DNA of 33,428 bases, taken from positions 602,059 to 635,486 of the forward strand of contig CP070836.1 in the NCBI GenBank assembly GCA_020341795.1, written 5' to 3'. The translations under genes were made by a program, and so were the position numbers. Positions within the stretch are counted from its first letter, which is position 1, and every line of letters begins with the position of its first letter. Positions 12,583 to 31,482 of the stretch are shown here, one piece after another. This DNA comes from Thermoplasmatales archaeon (GTDB lineage Archaea; Thermoplasmatota; E2; DHVEG-1). A model generated the notes under the pieces. It was not told the origin of the DNA. It ran no database searches and was given only the letters and a program-made list of their open reading frames with translations.

Positions 12583-13812
12583 TCATAAGAATTTTTGAAA
12601 AAGGCGATATATAGAAGGAAATCTTCCAGATAAAATATCAAGAATATTGAAACGTAAATATTTATTCTTTGGCATTGCTACACTCAATGGATCTGACCAT
12701 TCACTTTCATTACCATATAAATCCTTGGTTTTTACTTTAATTTCATAATTTCCTTCTTCTAACCAAACATGTGAAGCTGTGCATTCCTCTCCTGAATCGT
12801 GATAACCAATCCAGCCACTATTTGTTCCATCTCCCCAATCAAAAAAATAAAACAATAGATCACCATCATCATCAGTACCAATAGTGGAATACATGTATTC
12901 ATTGTTTATCCTTCCAGATACTTTTCCAGTTACAGTCTCTGGTTTATTTGGTGAATGATTTGAATTATTCATAAATAAGGATGCTAGATCAATGCTTTGA
13001 TATCCTTGTTCAAATATTTCTGGAAGGTGATAATCAACAACTTGTTGATAATTATGAAAAAAGTAAATATACATTATACCTTGTTTTAAATCACAAACAT
13101 TGGAATAAATTGTATCAAGAATAAATGTTTGGAGGTTAATTCTTTCCATTTGTACAGCCTCACAGATATCTCTAAAGTTATCAACTGAGTAATCTGTTAA
13201 AACTTCAAGCATTGATGTCGCTGTTTCATATCGCCAGCATGGATATCCTCCAAGCTCAGGATGTGTCTGTAAAAAATTTGTAACTACTTGGTAACTACCA
13301 GTTTTATAAATTACATCATCACCTTCTATTATCGCTGAATTCCCTGTTTTGTCGACAAAAAAACCTTGGATATCATCCATATAAGGAATATAGTATCTGT
13401 CGAAAACCTCTACTACTTCATTTACTGTTGCACAGGTTCGGATGCAATATGCAAAAATATCATTGTTAAATGTTGGTTTATCTAATGGATTTGTTGGCTC
13501 TAAGGTTGGTGTTGAGAAAATATCAAAAAACAGGCCTTGATCATTCATACCTCCAAAAGCAGAATATCCTGCAGTGTCAAAAGGATATGGCCATTTACAA
13601 TAAAATACTACCCGACCATAACTATTACCTGAAGGAGGAGAAATTATCAAACGAGGTTCGGCTAACATTGAAAGATCTTCATTATTACCAGCTAAAACCT
13701 GATTCTCATTTGATGCAGTAAACCCAGTACATGCAGTAGCAAAATTACAACTAACAAATAAAACTATAATAACTACTATAATTATGAATATTTTTTTCAT
13801 ATTTCTTTTCAT
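12583..13812 (-). CDS. Secreted Ntn hydrolase (choloylglycine hydrolase/C45-like) with PKD-like domain
   Basis: A 409-residue exported amidase-like protein. Residues 1-27 form a signal peptide (MKRNMKKIF then a long hydrophobic run) ending in ATA; the next residue, Cys28 in CTGFTASNENQVLAGNNED, is the predicted N-terminal nucleophile, so signal-peptide removal would itself expose the active Cys. The catalytic domain runs to about 285 (GYSAFGGMNDQGLFFDI, then CIRTCATVNEV). A PKD-like domain follows at about 293-377 (DWGDGTNSGWIGYHDSGE, NYEIKVKTKDLYGNESEW) and a C-terminal tail with PKNK, then GRFPSIYRLF. GAGGT five to six bases before ATG 13812 supports the start. A paralogue starts at 239. 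Substrate is unknown; family members cleave linear amides such as bile-salt or penicillin conjugates. Confidence 0.8.
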   Translation of the reverse strand: MKRNMKKIFIIIVVIIVLFVSCNFATACTGFTASNENQVLAGNNEDLSMLAEPRLIISPPSGNSYGRVVFYCKWPYPFDTAGYSAFGGMNDQGLFFDIFSTPTLEPTNPLDKPTFNNDIFAYCIRTCATVNEVVEVFDRYYIPYMDDIQGFFVDKTGNSAIIEGDDVIYKTGSYQVVTNFLQTHPELGGYPCWRYETATSMLEVLTDYSVDNFRDICEAVQMERINLQTFILDTIYSNVCDLKQGIMYIYFFHNYQQVVDYHLPEIFEQGYQSIDLASLFMNNSNHSPNKPETVTGKVSGRINNEYMYSTIGTDDDGDLLFYFFDWGDGTNSGWIGYHDSGEECTASHVWLEEGNYEIKVKTKDLYGNESEWSDPLSVAMPKNKYLRFNILDILSGRFPSIYRLFQKFL

Positions 13813-18238: not shown

Positions 18239-20764
18239 TTAATCATATGTAAAGGATATTGTAAGAGGTAATTTTCTTAATAAAAAATAAAAAGATTTAT
18301 TAAGCTGAGTTGTTGAAACGGAAACTTTAAGAGTTTCCCAGTCACTTTCTGCACCATTAATATCTTTTGCTTTTGCACGAATTGTATAACTTCCTTTTTC
18401 GTCCCATGTATGGTTTATAGTTATTTGTTCACCAGAATCATATGATCCAATCCATTTCTCTGTTTCACCATTTCCCCATTCTATGAAGTAAAACAAATCA
18501 TCCCTATTTGGATCAACTGTAAAAAATGTAAAGCTCATTTCTTTCCCTGAATCGCCTTTTATTGTGCCTGATATTTCAGGTGTATATGGTGGATTATTCT
18601 CTTTAGGAATAGTAATTATTCTAGGATTGGGATTAACAGGGTCAAGATTTGCTAAAACCTCTTGTTTCGTGAACCATGCTGGTTTGTATTCATCCCTACT
18701 ATACAATTCTGAAATATCATAATAATGTGGACTGGTAGGATCATTACTCTCAGAAAGTGGAAATTGACTCCAAGCTTTAATTGGTTCAGAGAGTTGAACA
18801 AGCATCATATATGAAGAACCGCCATCACAATACATGATGCCATTATCATCTACTGGACCATGTGACATATGTAAAGGTGTAAAAACATGTCCTCCTCCAC
18901 TCAAAGGATAAATGTTATTACCTCTTTGTAAAACATGAATTTCACCCCAGGTAATATTTAATTTTCCATATAATTCATCCATTTTTTTTGAAGCTTGAAT
19001 AAGCAGTTCTAATGCACCTCTCATTTCTTGAACTGAAAGATCACTTGGCTGAGTTGGATTTAATAAATCAACACCACCAAAATTTTTATAAACTTCTTCT
19101 GTCCAAATACGAGCGAGAGCAACTTCTTCAGAATCAACATTTAGATTATAATCCCAATTTTCTAACACATTTATTGATTTTGGAAGCCAGCCATTAGGGT
19201 CAGAAACATTTTCTGACTCTTTTTCATAAGAATAAAGAAGTAAAGGAATTAAAATTTCTGCGTTAAGTGCAAAATTATCAAGTGAATAAGCCATCATTTC
19301 ATCAAGTTCTATATCCCAGTCAGCATCCAAAAGATTTGTAGATCTTATCCCTCGAGCATTAAAACCACCATTTGCAATATAACTTGGATAGTCTTCTTCT
19401 TTAATAGTTGTAAGAGGATTTACATACCAGGGAGCAATGTTACAATTCTGAAAGAATTTACTTTCTGGATTTGTTTCCTGTGGTAATTCACTCATCTGAA
19501 CTAGTTTTCCCCACTCTGTTTTTGAAGTAGTTCCATCCACAGGTTTTGTATAATCATAGTTTCCTCGTCTATGAAAAATGCGCCCATTCCAAATATAAAA
19601 TATATTTCCATCAACATCCCCATAAACATGATTCCATCGTACTAGTTGCATTTTTGAAATTGCTTGTTTAAATTCATCAAGGTTACTAGCAAGATTATAA
19701 GCAAGTATCTGATCGGTAAAACCTACATCCTCCCAAGTACTTAATTTACCTGATATCGCTATTGTTCCTAATTCATAAACAATTGGACCATGATGTGTAT
19801 ATTTCAATTCAATATCAACAGGTTCTTGTCCTACAACAGGGATTTGCTCTTTTATAATTTCCAGCTCAAGCCATCTACCATCATATCTGTATTGATTTTT
19901 ATTAAAAAGATTTAGTTTTTCAATATATGCATCTGCAGTATCTGGACTATTTGCTGTAAATGCCCATGCTATGCGATCGTTATGACCAAGTATTACTCCA
20001 GGTATTCCCCAGAGGGTATTTCCCGATACATGGAAATCATCACTTTCAAGATGAACTTCATACCATGCATTTGTACCAAACCAAGATAGATGAGGATCAA
20101 TTTGAAGGATAACATGGCCATCAGTTGTTTTTTCAGGTGCAACAACCCATTCATTTGATTCATATATTTCATGTTCAAATCCTATGTTAATATTGCTTCC
20201 AAAACCATTTGAAATTTCCTGGACGAGTCTACCAACAGGTCTTGATAACATTATCATTTTACCCCACGAAATTACTTCCTGTGGTGTAACATCTGTAGCC
20301 CATTCTGGAACCTTTACTGGATTGATCTCCATGAAATAGTTTATTCCTTCAGCAAATGCTTCAACTGCTTCTTTTACCTCAGGTGAAATATCTGAGTATT
20401 TTTCTTTGACAATTTCAATAACACGAAGAAGACGCATTTGTGTATCAGAAAAAATATAATCACTTCCAAAAACCTCACTTAATCTGCCTTGTACCATTCG
20501 ATAATTAATCAACATTTGTTCAAGATGATCCTCCGCATGAGCATATCCCTCCCCGAAAAACAATGCATAATTAGACCCCGCATAAATATGCGGAACTCCA
20601 TAGACATCACGATAAATATATGCTTCATCAGGAGATAATTCAACATTTAAATCCTTAAAATAACTTCTTTTTACTTGCCAATTCATTCCATTTACAGTTA
20701 AAATAATAAATTGACTTGATATAAGCAAGAGATTAATCAATACTATTGAAATTATTTTTCTCAT
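18239..20764 (-). CDS. Secreted penicillin-acylase-like Ntn hydrolase with PKD-like domain
   Basis: An 841-residue exported amidase. After a signal peptide (residues 1-26) come the alpha-subunit motifs VYGVPHIYAGS and GEGYAHAEDHLEQM, a linker, and the predicted beta-subunit start SNEWVVAP with Ser203 as nucleophile after self-cleavage. DPHLSWFG, TNAWYEVHLE, YTHHGPIVYE and RWNHVYGDVDGNIFY are typical of the family (penicillin, cephalosporin and acyl-homoserine-lactone acylases). The residue before Ser203 is Glu instead of the usual Gly. The catalytic region ends near 730; a PKD-like domain (about 735-818, FIEWGNGETEKW, SYTIRAKAKDINGAESDW) and a short tail with LLRKLPLTISF follow. Converges with the glycyl radical enzyme gene, 11 bases away. 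Natural substrate unknown. Confidence 0.88.
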   Translation of the reverse strand: MRKIISIVLINLLLISSQFIILTVNGMNWQVKRSYFKDLNVELSPDEAYIYRDVYGVPHIYAGSNYALFFGEGYAHAEDHLEQMLINYRMVQGRLSEVFGSDYIFSDTQMRLLRVIEIVKEKYSDISPEVKEAVEAFAEGINYFMEINPVKVPEWATDVTPQEVISWGKMIMLSRPVGRLVQEISNGFGSNINIGFEHEIYESNEWVVAPEKTTDGHVILQIDPHLSWFGTNAWYEVHLESDDFHVSGNTLWGIPGVILGHNDRIAWAFTANSPDTADAYIEKLNLFNKNQYRYDGRWLELEIIKEQIPVVGQEPVDIELKYTHHGPIVYELGTIAISGKLSTWEDVGFTDQILAYNLASNLDEFKQAISKMQLVRWNHVYGDVDGNIFYIWNGRIFHRRGNYDYTKPVDGTTSKTEWGKLVQMSELPQETNPESKFFQNCNIAPWYVNPLTTIKEEDYPSYIANGGFNARGIRSTNLLDADWDIELDEMMAYSLDNFALNAEILIPLLLYSYEKESENVSDPNGWLPKSINVLENWDYNLNVDSEEVALARIWTEEVYKNFGGVDLLNPTQPSDLSVQEMRGALELLIQASKKMDELYGKLNITWGEIHVLQRGNNIYPLSGGGHVFTPLHMSHGPVDDNGIMYCDGGSSYMMLVQLSEPIKAWSQFPLSESNDPTSPHYYDISELYSRDEYKPAWFTKQEVLANLDPVNPNPRIITIPKENNPPYTPEISGTIKGDSGKEMSFTFFTVDPNRDDLFYFIEWGNGETEKWIGSYDSGEQITINHTWDEKGSYTIRAKAKDINGAESDWETLKVSVSTTQLNKSFYFLLRKLPLTISFTYD

Positions 20765-22365: not shown

Positions 22366-23268
22366 TTAACTTGAATTTCCATAAAAATTTTTGATAATTT
22401 TATCTTTAATTTGAATTGAAGATTCAATATGTTCTTTTGTTATTTTACTTCTTTCTAGAAGTGCTAATGCATATGCAATTCTCAAAATTGAAAACTCAAG
22501 GCTTCTATAAGATAATCCTTCAATTTTTTCATCAGAGTTTAAAATATAATCTTTAATGGCCTTTTTTATTGCAGGTTCATCATCTGGATCGATACGTGTT
22601 TTTGCATTTTGAGCCCAATCAAGATATGCTTTTACAACAAGTGAATAATCTTTTGAGTTTTTGCCCATAAAACTATCAATTATATCAGATACATATTCTG
22701 CTCTTTGAATTTTTGATATTTTTGAAACTTTAAAAGGAAAATCAAATCTATCAAAAAGTGGTCTTTGGATTTTTATAATGTCGTTACATGTAGCAATAAC
22801 GCGAACTTCAGCTTTGAAAGCTTGACGGTTTTTTCCCTTAGTAATAATATACTCGCCTTCTTCCATAGCCTGTAACAGACCATTTTGGTCTTGAACTGAC
22901 ATTTTATCAAGCTCGTCAACTAGCAGAATTGATCCACTGGTTTGTGCTAGTAAACCTGGATGAATTGTTTTACCTCGAGCATCACCGACCAGACCAGTTT
23001 TTGATGTTAGTTCAGAGTTGACAAGAACCCCATCCATTTTTTGCTGATACCAATTTAAAAACTCTGATTTACCTGTACCCGGTCCTCCCCATAATAAAAT
23101 ATGAAGTCTCATTCTCATATTTGGACGATCTTTTGTAACACCCATCAAAAGAGCGCATTTACGAATAATATCCCATTGTGTTCCAACCAAATATGGACAA
23201 ATATGCTTGGAAAGAAATATCAACGGATTTTCCTTGGCAATTATCTGAAAATATTCCTCCGATTTCAT
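22366..23268 (-). CDS. Stand-alone MCM-like AAA+ ATPase
   Basis: A 300-residue AAA+ protein equivalent to the ATPase module of the MCM replicative helicase, without its N-terminal DNA-binding domain. Walker A GGPGTGKS is at 61-68, Walker B ILLVDELDKM has Asp118-Glu119, sensor 1 is ATCN (Asn162), and the arginine finger region is RPLFDRFDF. The stretch TGLVGDARGKTIHPGLLAQT and a C-terminal winged-helix-like part (SYRSLEFSILRIAYALALL) favour MCM over MoxR or magnesium chelatase. The MCM helicase is usually about 650-700 residues, so this is less than half. It lies 31 bases after a tandem Lrp regulator on the same strand. Whether it unwinds DNA or remodels proteins is unknown. Confidence 0.75.
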   Translation of the reverse strand: MKSEEYFQIIAKENPLIFLSKHICPYLVGTQWDIIRKCALLMGVTKDRPNMRMRLHILLWGGPGTGKSEFLNWYQQKMDGVLVNSELTSKTGLVGDARGKTIHPGLLAQTSGSILLVDELDKMSVQDQNGLLQAMEEGEYIITKGKNRQAFKAEVRVIATCNDIIKIQRPLFDRFDFPFKVSKISKIQRAEYVSDIIDSFMGKNSKDYSLVVKAYLDWAQNAKTRIDPDDEPAIKKAIKDYILNSDEKIEGLSYRSLEFSILRIAYALALLERSKITKEHIESSIQIKDKIIKNFYGNSS

Positions 23269-24283: not shown

Positions 24284-24392
24284 AAATTCAAGACAATTTG
24301 ATATTTTGTTGCGACTATTTTACAGTTTTGTCGAGTTTTTTCAAAAGGCATTTCATATTTACAAAACAAATTTAGTATTTTAGGTGAAAAAA

Positions 24393-24875
24393 ATGAATAA
24401 AAAAATAGTAAACATTTGTGTTTTGATGCTGGTGACCATACCTATAATTGCAACCGCTAGTGCAGATGAATTAAATCTAAAAACAGAGTCAACTGCACCT
24501 ATAATCACTGGTCCTACAAAAGGGACATTTGGCAATGTTTATGAATATAGTATCACCTATACAGATCCAGAAGGAGAAGATGTATATTATAAGATCAGAT
24601 GGGGAGACTGCATTATTATTTACAATGATGGTCCACATAAATCAGGAGAAACAATAAAACGTTCACATGCTTGGTGTGATTTATGCTGTGGACCAGGAGA
24701 ATTTACAATCAGTGTTCGAGCAAGAAATGATAACGGAGATTTAAGTGACTGGGGAGAACTAAGAGTAAAAATGGAAGAAAAAGAAGACAAACCATTATAC
24801 AAACCAGTCTTTTCTACACTATTTGAAAAGCTTCTACAACGCTTTCCAATACTAGGAAAAATTTCTATTTTTTAA
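24393..24875 (+). CDS. Small secreted PKD-like domain protein with C-terminal tail
   Basis: A 160-residue exported protein: signal peptide (about 1-26, ending ATASA), one PKD-like domain (APIITGPTKGTFG, ITYTDPEGEDVYYKIRWGD, FTISVRARNDNGDLSDWGEL) and a tail with FEKLLQRFPILGKISIF. Four Cys (in WGDCIII and AWCDLCCG) may form disulfides or bind metal, unusual for this domain. AGGTGA directly before ATG 24393 decides the start over a GTG nine bases earlier. It has no catalytic domain, so it may be a binding or surface-structure protein. The domain and tail are shared with the two secreted hydrolases at 12583-13812 and 18239-20764. Confidence 0.7.
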   Translation: MNKKIVNICVLMLVTIPIIATASADELNLKTESTAPIITGPTKGTFGNVYEYSITYTDPEGEDVYYKIRWGDCIIIYNDGPHKSGETIKRSHAWCDLCCGPGEFTISVRARNDNGDLSDWGELRVKMEEKEDKPLYKPVFSTLFEKLLQRFPILGKISIF

Positions 24876-26995: not shown

Positions 26996-27071
26996 GCTCT
27001 CCTGTTTACCTTATTAAAACAAGACGTGTATGCAAACATTCCATATATTTTTTGTAGGGAGGCTTAAAAAA

Positions 27072-27818
27072 ATGAAAAAAATTAATCTTTCAACCCATGC
27101 CATCGAAAAATCTGATTTCTTAATTGCAAAAGAGATAATAAAACCAGATATAGTAGTAGAATCCGGTATAAAAGAACTAGATCTTATTCTTGGTGGTTTT
27201 AAATCTGGAGAGATAACATATATCGACGGAGATAGTAGTCTGATTTCAAGTATACCAGATCAACTTTGTGTAAACACCTATAGAACCTTTCATAGTGATA
27301 TTATCTACATTGATGCTGGAATGTGTGCAGATCCCTATAAAATCAGCAAATACGCGCTTAAACTGGAGATAAGCCCGCGAGAAATTCTTGAACATGTGCA
27401 TATAAGCAGAGCGTTTACAGTCTATCAACTTGCAACACTGATACAAGACAGACTTGAACAGGCAATAAAAAGATACAAACCACAGACTCTTATAATAGGC
27501 AGACTTCCAATTTTTTATCTAGACTCAGACGTTGAATCAAAAGAAGCCCAGGTTCTTTTAAGAACCAATCTGTATAAAATCCGTGAACTTACCACAAAAT
27601 ATGATCTTATCACTGTTTTTACAAATCTTGATAGGAAAATGCTGACAAACAACATAGATGTTCGTAAAATCTTACATAAAGAAGTAGATGAAGTTGTCAT
27701 GATGAAACAAACAGAGATTTCAACTAAAGTAGAGCTTGTAAAAAGACAAGAAAACACAGTAATTCTGCAACTTGCAAAAGGGCAACTAAGACTTCAGGAA
27801 TTTGGAATGGTGATATAA
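27072..27818 (+). CDS. RadA/RecA-fold protein with degraded ATPase motifs
   Basis: A 248-residue protein of the RadA/Rad55/KaiC class by layout: SGIKELDLILGGFKSGEITYIDG matches the entry into the RecA core, followed by DIIYIDAG, QLATLIQDRLEQAIKRY, LIIGRLP and a C-terminal strand region. The Walker A loop, usually GxxxxGKT, reads DGDSSLISSIPDQLC with no Lys, and the Walker B Asp is replaced by Gly in LIIGRL. It is therefore probably not an ATPase but a structural or adaptor paralogue. ATG 27072 is chosen because GGGAGG lies just before it; an in-frame ATG at 27030 lacks one. The next gene starts one base after the stop, and the polymerase follows. Confidence 0.7.
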   Translation: MKKINLSTHAIEKSDFLIAKEIIKPDIVVESGIKELDLILGGFKSGEITYIDGDSSLISSIPDQLCVNTYRTFHSDIIYIDAGMCADPYKISKYALKLEISPREILEHVHISRAFTVYQLATLIQDRLEQAIKRYKPQTLIIGRLPIFYLDSDVESKEAQVLLRTNLYKIRELTTKYDLITVFTNLDRKMLTNNIDVRKILHKEVDEVVMMKQTEISTKVELVKRQENTVILQLAKGQLRLQEFGMVI

Positions 27819-27819
27819 G

Positions 27820-28074
27820 ATGGGGCGTACAGTTCCCACGTTTAGAAACATAATAGAGTCCTTCGGATGGGAATGGAACGATTTCAAAAGAGCACTTAGA
27901 AGCATTGACCGTGAAGCTTTTGAAGAACTTATGAACCATGCACGTCGCCATGCAGTAGCCGGTAGTAACATGAGCAACCCGAATCCATTTGAGCCAGTTG
28001 TTATGAGTATATTGGTAGAACATGAAAAAACCCTGCGGAAGTTACGCGAACATGTTGAAGGGAAACATACTTGA
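27820..28074 (+). CDS. Small conserved-looking protein in the PolB2 operon
   Basis: An 84-residue helical, charged protein starting MGRTVPTFRNIIESFGWEWN, with FKRALRSIDREAFEELMNHARRH and a C-terminal ILVEHEKTLRKLREHVEG helix. I recall similar short proteins beginning MGRT with the same FRRAL-R-D pattern in other archaea, but know no function. The tight packing, one base after the RadA-like gene and overlapping the start of the polymerase gene, makes a shared complex likely. No zinc or catalytic motif is visible. Confidence 0.65.
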   Translation: MGRTVPTFRNIIESFGWEWNDFKRALRSIDREAFEELMNHARRHAVAGSNMSNPNPFEPVVMSILVEHEKTLRKLREHVEGKHT

Positions 28075-30325
28075 TGTCTATGCTGAAAATAAAAAAAATG
28101 TGATGGTCACATGGATTGCAGATAACGGTAAATCAACAAAGATAGAAGACAAATACAGTCCAAGTTTTTTTGTATATTCAAATCAGGATGATCTTTTAAA
28201 TGTTGCATCGCTTTTAAGAGATATGTCACAATTAGACTCTCTTAATCTTACATATAAAAAACTCATTTTGGGATCTGACAAAAAAAAGCTTGTTCTAGAG
28301 GTTGTTCCAAAAAAAATAGAATATCTCCGAAGTCTTTCTGAGATGATTGACTCTTGGGGAGGATATTATCGTTATCAACTTTTTGATGTAGATACACGTC
28401 TATCAAGTAGATACCTACAAGACAGGGGTGTTTTCTGTAATGCAAAAATATGCTGGGATGGTAAAAAGTTTACATCTAATGACATACAATGGGCTGTTGA
28501 CTATGACAAGCCGTTTTATACGAGTACAACTTTTGAAATCACCAGAAAATCAAAAAGTAAAATAATATCATTTAACGACCCTATAAATCATATCAAAATA
28601 GGTAAAAACATTATTTGCGAAAGAAATGAAACAGATACTATCCTATTAGCAATTAAGCAGCTAAAACATATCGACCCAGATATAGTTTACACTCATAAGG
28701 GTGATAGCGTTGTTTTTCCATATCTTTATCATAGAGCAAAACTTTGCGGCATACAAAACTCATTAAACCTTGGTAGAGACTCATATCATCACTTGCATCC
28801 TTCAAAACAAGCAAAATCATATTTCAGCTACGGTCAAATAGTTTATCGCCCTGCTTTTTATACGCTGCGAGGTCGCGTGCATATTGACAGGCATAACTCG
28901 TTTATGTACGGTGAAAGCGGACTTCATGGACTTCTTGACATTTCACGTTGTTCAAACATACCACTTCAGGTTTTATCACGTGTCGGACCTGGTACAGGTA
29001 TCAGTCAAATACAAGTAAACAAGGCACGTGAAAAAGGATATCTAATACCTTGGAAGAAAAACATGCCAGAAGACTGGAAGACTGCAATGGATCTTTTAGT
29101 ATCAGATCGTGGAGGACTCATACTTGACCCAGCAGTTGGTCTACATGAGGACGTAGTCGAACTTGACTTTGCATCCCTTTATCCAAATGTTATGCTACGT
29201 TTTAACATAAGCCCTGAGACCATGCTTTGCAACTGCTGCAGAGATATTCCAAGTATTATAGTTCCACAGCTTAGTTATCATATATGCAACCGCCAAATGG
29301 GGCTACTTCCAGAGGTTTTAAAACCCATATTGTTCCGTCGGTTCTGCTATAAAGCCCGCTCAAGAAACAAAAAATATGATCAAGCATTGTATAAAGAACT
29401 GCAACAGGCATGGAAATGGGTGCTATTGGTATGCTTTGGCTACACTGGTTATCGTAATGCTCGTTATGGTCGTATCGAGTGCTATGAAAGCATTACTGCA
29501 TATAGTCGTGATATTTTATTATCTGCGGTTGAAACAGTTGAAAAAGCAGGATACAAGGTGCTTCATGGGATTATTGATTCATTATGGGTAAAGCCAAAAA
29601 AAGGCTGTGTAAACCCTACACATCTATCACGCATTATAGGAAGACAAACCGGTGTACGAATGGATTTAGAAGGAAGATACAGATGGATTGTTTTTCTACC
29701 TAGCAAAATCACAGGTGTTGGTGCATTAAACAGGTATTACGGCATGTTTGAGGATAAAGAGATCAAGGTTAGAGGAGTCGAGCTACGACAGAGAAACTCA
29801 CCTGTCTTTTTAAAAAACATGCAAAATGATATAATCAATGTTTTTTCAAAAGCAGAAAAAAAATCCGAGTTCCTAGAGCTCATCCCTAAAGCAGTTGATG
29901 TGATAAGAGAATATGGACTAAAAATAATAAAAAATGAAGTAGCTCAAGATACACTAGTTATCAAAAGCTGTGTATCAAGAGATATTTCTGAGTATAAGGT
30001 GAACACGCTTGTTAAATCTGCAATGTTTCAGCTTAGAAAAGAAGGAGTTGAGCCTGAACCCGGTCAATCCGTGAGATACGTTGTATGCAATGAAAAAACA
30101 CGTAATCCACTAAAACGTGTATGTATAGCTGAAAAATTATATGGAAATGATACAATAGATATCGATTTTTATCTTAGACAGATTGCACAATATGCTGAAA
30201 GCATACTTGTACCATTTGGTTTCAACCTTGAAAAAATTTATGACATGCTTCAGAAAATTAAGTATAGGGAGAAATACTATGTATCCGTATTACCTAGAGT
30301 TGGAACTCATCAAACCTGTATCTGA
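28052..30325 (+). CDS. polB2: Family B DNA polymerase, PolB2 type with altered catalytic motif
   Basis: A 757-residue family B polymerase. Motif A is intact, VELDFASLYPNVM (Asp372); the motif B region reads WKWVLLVCFGYTGYRNARYG; motif C, normally YxDTDS, reads HGIIDSLWV, so the first metal-binding Asp is Ile507 while Asp509 remains. Exonuclease motifs are degraded: exo I DxE appears as TTFEIT and exo II lacks NxxxFD (YTHKGDSVVFPYL). A Cys cluster (MLCNCCRD, HICNRQMG) lies between A and B. These are hallmarks of the archaeal PolB2 family, once thought inactive; the Sulfolobus member Dpo2 has been implicated in lesion bypass. ATG 28052 (MLKGNILDVYA) is preferred over 28022, which lies deeper in the preceding gene. 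It overlaps genes on both sides. Confidence 0.88.
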   Translation: MLKGNILDVYAENKKNVMVTWIADNGKSTKIEDKYSPSFFVYSNQDDLLNVASLLRDMSQLDSLNLTYKKLILGSDKKKLVLEVVPKKIEYLRSLSEMIDSWGGYYRYQLFDVDTRLSSRYLQDRGVFCNAKICWDGKKFTSNDIQWAVDYDKPFYTSTTFEITRKSKSKIISFNDPINHIKIGKNIICERNETDTILLAIKQLKHIDPDIVYTHKGDSVVFPYLYHRAKLCGIQNSLNLGRDSYHHLHPSKQAKSYFSYGQIVYRPAFYTLRGRVHIDRHNSFMYGESGLHGLLDISRCSNIPLQVLSRVGPGTGISQIQVNKAREKGYLIPWKKNMPEDWKTAMDLLVSDRGGLILDPAVGLHEDVVELDFASLYPNVMLRFNISPETMLCNCCRDIPSIIVPQLSYHICNRQMGLLPEVLKPILFRRFCYKARSRNKKYDQALYKELQQAWKWVLLVCFGYTGYRNARYGRIECYESITAYSRDILLSAVETVEKAGYKVLHGIIDSLWVKPKKGCVNPTHLSRIIGRQTGVRMDLEGRYRWIVFLPSKITGVGALNRYYGMFEDKEIKVRGVELRQRNSPVFLKNMQNDIINVFSKAEKKSEFLELIPKAVDVIREYGLKIIKNEVAQDTLVIKSCVSRDISEYKVNTLVKSAMFQLRKEGVEPEPGQSVRYVVCNEKTRNPLKRVCIAEKLYGNDTIDIDFYLRQIAQYAESILVPFGFNLEKIYDMLQKIKYREKYYVSVLPRVGTHQTCI

Positions 30326-30747: not shown

Positions 30748-31482
30748 ATGTGCTATCGTTATAGCGTTCCTGGTCCTGATGCAGTTAAAAAAACATTTCA
30801 GGTAAAACTTGGAACTAGTTTTGAAAGACATTACCATGTTGGTGCTTTTGACAAACCAAAGCTACCAGTTATAACTAACATAAAACCTGAACAGGTTGAT
30901 TTATTTTACTGGGGATTAATACCCTTTTGGGTAAAAGATGAAAAAACTGCAAATGACATTAGCGATAGGACTGCAAACGCACGATGTGAAACAATTTTTG
31001 AAAAACCATCTTTTCGACATCTTGCAGGGAAAAAACATTGTCTAGTCATTGCTGATGGTTTTTTTGAATGGCGATGGTACAATGGAATCAATTATCCCTA
31101 TTATATAAGATTGAAAAATCATGAACCATTTGCAATGGCAGGATTATGGGATATATGGACTAATAAAGCAACTGGTGAAGAAATACCATCTTATACAATA
31201 ATTACTACCGATGCAAATCCCTTAATGGCTATGATTCATAACAAGAAGAAAAGAATGCCTGTGATTCTAAAAAAACAAGATTACCCACATTGGATAGCAA
31301 GTGATATAACAAAAGATCAAACAATGGAAGTCCTTCAAGCTTATGATCAAAATAAAATGGAAGCATATACTATTTCAAAACTAATCACTGCAAAGGATCA
31401 AAATACTAATGTTCCACAGGTACTCGAGCCGTTTCAATATAATACCTTAGAGCCACTTCCAAGTCAAAAAAGCTTGTTTTGA
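30748..31482 (+). CDS. SRAP-domain protein (HMCES/YedK family), abasic-site shield
   Basis: A 244-residue SRAP protein, which links covalently to abasic sites in single-stranded DNA through its Cys2 and so protects them. The sequence starts MCYRYS, so Met removal exposes Cys2. Other active-site residues are Asn77 in RTANAR, Glu107 in GFFEW and His164 in MIHNKKKRMPVIL. The length is usual. The extreme C-terminus, PSQKSLF, looks like a sliding-clamp-binding peptide. GGAGAT precedes the ATG and the gene lies 34 bases after the nuclease gene, so it probably shares the damage-tolerance operon. It converges with msrA, overlapping its 3' end by 19 bases. Confidence 0.93.
   Translation: MCYRYSVPGPDAVKKTFQVKLGTSFERHYHVGAFDKPKLPVITNIKPEQVDLFYWGLIPFWVKDEKTANDISDRTANARCETIFEKPSFRHLAGKKHCLVIADGFFEWRWYNGINYPYYIRLKNHEPFAMAGLWDIWTNKATGEEIPSYTIITTDANPLMAMIHNKKKRMPVILKKQDYPHWIASDITKDQTMEVLQAYDQNKMEAYTISKLITAKDQNTNVPQVLEPFQYNTLEPLPSQKSLF

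Follow-up and report, generated by a model that had tools for sequence, protein, structure and literature searches.

The PolB2 gene and its motif C

The window (the whole 33,428-nucleotide stretch of Thermoplasmatales DNA analysed here) carries a B-family DNA polymerase in which motif C reads Ile-Ile-Asp where Asp-Thr-Asp is canonical, and the question raised by the locus is whether such an enzyme has a deficient metal site or works with the residues that it has. The substitution is real, but it is expected for PolB2 and already known, and we are confident that the gene encodes an ordinary archaeal PolB2 (Dpo2-type) translesion DNA polymerase, with HGIID as the normal motif C of its family. 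The relevant features are:

28052..30325, forward strand: PolB2, B-family DNA polymerase, 757 amino acids from the Met at 28052
29105..29110, forward strand: Asp352-Arg353, the PolB2-specific D(K/R) motif (Asp in 58 of 58 proteins; Arg in 54, Lys in 3)
29165..29167, forward strand: GAC codon of motif A Asp372, a metal ligand by homology, invariant in 58 of 58
29564..29578, forward strand: motif C core, His505-Gly-Ile507-Ile508-Asp509 (canonical Y-G-D-T-D), from alignment and conservation

The longest open reading frame at the gene spans 28022–30325 on the forward strand (767 amino acids), and the Met at 28052 is its residue 11. Because most homologues begin their alignment at residues 9–13, this Met is a plausible start, and the residue numbering (Asp372, Ile507) is counted from it. 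The product matches Pfam DNA_pol_B (2.1e-33), and an AlphaFold2 model based on a 58-sequence alignment has a mean pLDDT of 92.3 and a pTM of 0.89; a Foldseek search of the PDB with this model returns archaeal PolBs (best E 8e-43, TM 0.76). Domain match, fold and conservation of Asp372 together define a B-family polymerase domain with an intact motif A, as the initial annotation had it. Among solved structures, the best sequence match is PolB3 from Pyrobaculum calidifontis (PDB code 5mdn; 2.4e-43), which has the polymerase domain in common with the window protein, but retains YGDTD and an exonuclease site, both of which are absent here.

Motif A of the window PolB2 reads ELDFASLYPN; in motif C, VLHGIIDSLWV, His505 (CAT, 29564), Ile507 (ATT, 29570), Ile508 (ATT) and Asp509 (GAT, 29576) are followed by Ser510. 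In phmmer alignments, HGIIDSLWV pairs without gaps with YGDTDSLFV in Pyrobaculum PolB3 (5mdn) and with YIDTDGLYA in Pyrococcus abyssi PolB (4fm2), which confirms that Ile507 occupies the position of the first Asp. In the model, motif C lies on a β hairpin as expected (strands 501–507 and 510–515). The other PolB of the same genome (952 amino acids) has canonical YGDTD and DIE motifs.

Conservation across the family was assessed in a main alignment of 58 Thermoplasmatota PolB2 proteins with 28–71% identity to the window protein. Position 507 is Ile in 56 of these, and Leu and Val in one each; in a wider set of 76 open reading frames, the column of the first Asp holds Ile in 70, Leu in three, Met in one and Val in one, the last entry being a fragment. 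The position is consistently hydrophobic in both sets. Seven residues, His505, Asp509, Asp372, Asp352, Glu340, Glu479 and Trp512, are invariant in all 58 proteins, and the window protein conforms to the PolB2 change from YxDTD to HxxxD in which the second Asp alone is kept (HGIID; His and Asp each in 58/58). In one relative (G034), PolB2 appears split over two loci 64 kb apart (L016 and L022); the locus with the N-terminal part continues into a run of N, and we discarded this case as an assembly or scaffolding artefact.

The exonuclease site has also been lost. At Exo I, FEIT replaces FDIE in a column that is variable across the 58 PolB2 proteins, the aligned Exo II region of the window protein (THKGDSVVFPYL) lacks the N..FD pattern, and a clear YxxxD could not be seen by eye at Exo III. 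The exonuclease active site is non-conserved, as in PolB2 generally, and the erosion of Exo I and Exo II described earlier holds.

The catalytic metal site

From the loss of the first motif C Asp, the initial annotation had concluded that one carboxylate is missing from the two-metal site. This is misleading, since the ligating positions, Asp372 and Asp509, are both kept. Metal coordination in B-family structures is reported to fall to the second motif C Asp, the first one facing away from the centre (PMC8764526). In RB69 polymerase, D411 and D623 are the key active-site residues, with D411 coordinating metal directly (PMC3792054, PMC3799440); the former study also describes a catalytic triad including D621 that binds metal “directly or indirectly”. 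Conservation and the B-family structures suggest that Asp372 and Asp509 hold the two catalytic metals in the window PolB2, in which case Ile507 would sit where an Asp has been reported as non-ligating in productive complexes; His505, which is invariant, would take the place of Tyr. The first Asp of motif C does matter in human Pol alpha and in viral enzymes, and B-family enzymes other than PolB2 are crippled when it is mutated. The leading candidate for a residue that lets PolB2 tolerate the loss is His505.

It had further been proposed that another acidic residue or a partner completes the site. A replacement carboxylate was put forward in the literature on the basis of a homology model by Kazlauskas and others (2020; PMC7544198), who noted the conserved His and the D(K/R) motif, and proposed the Asp of the latter as a substitute for the missing one. 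Asp352 of this motif is a possible donor in the window protein, and the invariance of Asp352, Glu340 and Glu479 is compatible with such a role. From its place before motif A, we infer that Asp352-Arg353 is equivalent to 253-DK-254 of Sulfolobus islandicus PolB2 (hereafter S. islandicus). Later work by the same group no longer places the D(K/R) motif at the active site and gives it a role in binding PPB2, with AlphaFold complexes setting it against the PPB2 N-terminal arm (PMC11791011); this speaks against Asp352 as the completing residue. Moreover, no substitute is needed if the lost Asp points away from the metals, as has been described (PMC8764526), and primer-independent PolBs, which also lack this Asp, are efficient (PMC7544198). 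A substitute ligand, whether from another acidic residue or from a partner protein, is on these grounds improbable. The expectation of a partner survives in another form: models have PolB2 working together with PPB2 and iRadA, though neither of these as a donor of a metal ligand.

Polymerase activity

The two Asp residues retained in PolB2 bear on an older reading, in which the polymerase is catalytically dead and serves the replisome only as a structural subunit. Rogozin and others (2008; PMC2527604) called the family “inactivated” for exactly this motif, and pointed out that its distal Asp is retained. In favour of such a reading, motif C has lost both its first Asp and its Tyr, and the exonuclease residues have gone as well. 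However, Asp372 and Asp509 remain invariant over deep divergence while the exonuclease residues vary, a pattern that fits retained polymerase chemistry, and the PolB2 enzymes of S. islandicus and S. solfataricus are active. We therefore regard a dead polymerase as very unlikely. Least credible of all is a misassigned or shifted motif C, or a decayed or wrongly assembled gene, for which no supporting point was found: the gapless alignments to solved polymerases rule out a shifted motif with two carboxylates, and the occurrence of the same residues in independent genomes, the full-length open frame and the confident model rule out a pseudogene or sequencing error.

For an active PolB2, the S. 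islandicus enzyme is the most informative comparison, as a characterised, error-tolerant member of the family that bears the same residues as the window protein. Its motif is 401-IID-403, and the first Asp is absent from most PolB2 proteins (Timinskas and others, 2025; PMC11791011). Dpo2 obtained from the native S. islandicus host incorporates nucleotides robustly, at a level similar to that of the replicase. It is poorly processive, has no exonuclease activity and serves translesion synthesis as an extender (PMC8764526), and genetic evidence makes it the driver of damage-induced mutagenesis (PMC7390963). The two proteins have in common H-x-I-I-D, the motif A Asp, loss of the exonuclease site, the D(K/R) motif and an operon with iRadA and PPB2. 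They differ in size, Sulfolobus Dpo2 having been called the smallest known PolB2 (PMC8764526) and the window protein having 757 amino acids. DNA synthesis, mismatch extension and lack of 3'-5' exonuclease activity have been demonstrated only with Sulfolobus enzymes, which belong to another phylum than the window PolB2.

Since S. islandicus PolB2 is active with the same IID, weak polymerisation does not follow for the window protein. The earlier description of its polymerisation as “weak and specialised” can be kept in its second half; the first half does not agree with the nearest tested enzyme, which is robust but distributive (PMC8764526). The best-supported reading is that the window PolB2 would be active, lack proofreading and be specialised in extension. 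By analogy with S. islandicus Dpo2, and given the loss of the exonuclease site, it would extend mispaired or lesion-opposed primer ends in a distributive and unproofread manner. What looked like a broken motif is thereby removed as a false lead: it is the regular form, kept by selection, of this motif in a translesion polymerase family.

The mutasome operon

PolB2 is preceded and followed by genes on the same strand:

27030..27818, forward strand: iRadA, inactive RadA/Rad51 homologue (Pfam Rad51 1.2e-7; Walker A/B residues lost)
27783..27803, forward strand: QLRLQEF, a PCNA-binding-like QxxLxxF motif at the iRadA C-terminus (pattern in 19 of 22 iRadA C-termini)
27820..28074, forward strand: PPB2 (arCOG07300-type), 84 amino acids, N-terminus MGRTVPTFR, with the MGRT arm as in PMC11791011
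30279..30713, forward strand: PD-(D/E)XK-like small protein, 144 amino acids, between PolB2 and SRAP (conservation, model, sub-threshold Pfam match)
30748..31482, forward strand: SRAP (HMCES/YedK family), 244 amino acids (Pfam SRAP 8e-54), a neighbour in relatives too

To judge by gene content and order (iRadA-PPB2-PolB2), 27030–30325 is the published mutasome operon. Aligned with the intact RadA encoded elsewhere in the genome, iRadA has GD-SSLIS in place of the Walker A sequence GEFGSGKT, and TLIIGR in place of the Walker B sequence LLVVDS, and thus lacks the ATPase residues; a shorter form of iRadA may start at 27072. Of 23 loci with flanking sequence, a few of them near-duplicates, 20 have the three genes together; a nearby PPB2 is missing in two of the exceptions and a recognisable iRadA in one.

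The mutasome described by Timinskas and others (2025; PMC11791011) consists of PolB2, a PPB2 trimer and iRadA. Gene order, MGRT arm, lost Walker motifs, clamp-binding-like iRadA motif and SRAP neighbour are all shared with the window, which differs in having the extra PD-(D/E)XK-like gene downstream. The window PolB2 probably acts as a PolB2-PPB2(3)-iRadA mutasome, which might reach PCNA via the iRadA C-terminus.

A small nuclease-like gene next to PolB2

In the PD-(D/E)XK-like protein, E7, D37, E50-x-K52 and Q62 are invariant across 25 relatives. The Pfam restriction-endonuclease family REase_MTES_1575 matches below the cut-off (0.0021), and the model (pLDDT 89.3) shows moderate similarity to XisH and further small proteins (E about 1e-4, TM about 0.5–0.6), with weaker matches to nucleases such as HindIII. 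Among genomes of the window's own family, PolB2 or PPB2 lies within about 1.5 kb of the gene in nine of the ten genomes with a match in the phylum sample, and the tenth match is near a contig end. A detectable operon gene within about 1.5 kb was found for none of 19 more distant relatives. The arrangement varies: one relative (L093) has the gene between PPB2 and PolB2, and another (L116) has it beside a separate PPB2. The main texts of the cited PolB2 papers do not mention it.

Tentatively, and with rather more doubt than belief, we suggest that the mutasome of this Thermoplasmatota family includes one more functional component: a PD-(D/E)XK nuclease-fold protein, encoded within or beside the operon, that would process ends or junctions of damaged DNA, either ahead of extension by PolB2 or following it, alongside SRAP at abasic sites. 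The small gene is a modest lead toward a further operon component.

Other genes in the window

A stand-alone short AAA+ protein of 300 amino acids with an MCM P-loop match is encoded at 22366–23268 on the reverse strand, and is far smaller than replicative MCM. The segment 14888–18227 on the forward strand encodes a radical-SAM activase followed by a glycyl-radical enzyme (PFL-like, with a Gly_radical domain). Three predicted secreted proteins, at 12583–13812 and 18239–20764 on the reverse strand and at 24384–24875 on the forward strand, have a similar PKD-like C-terminal stretch, and one of them has a penicillin-amidase domain.
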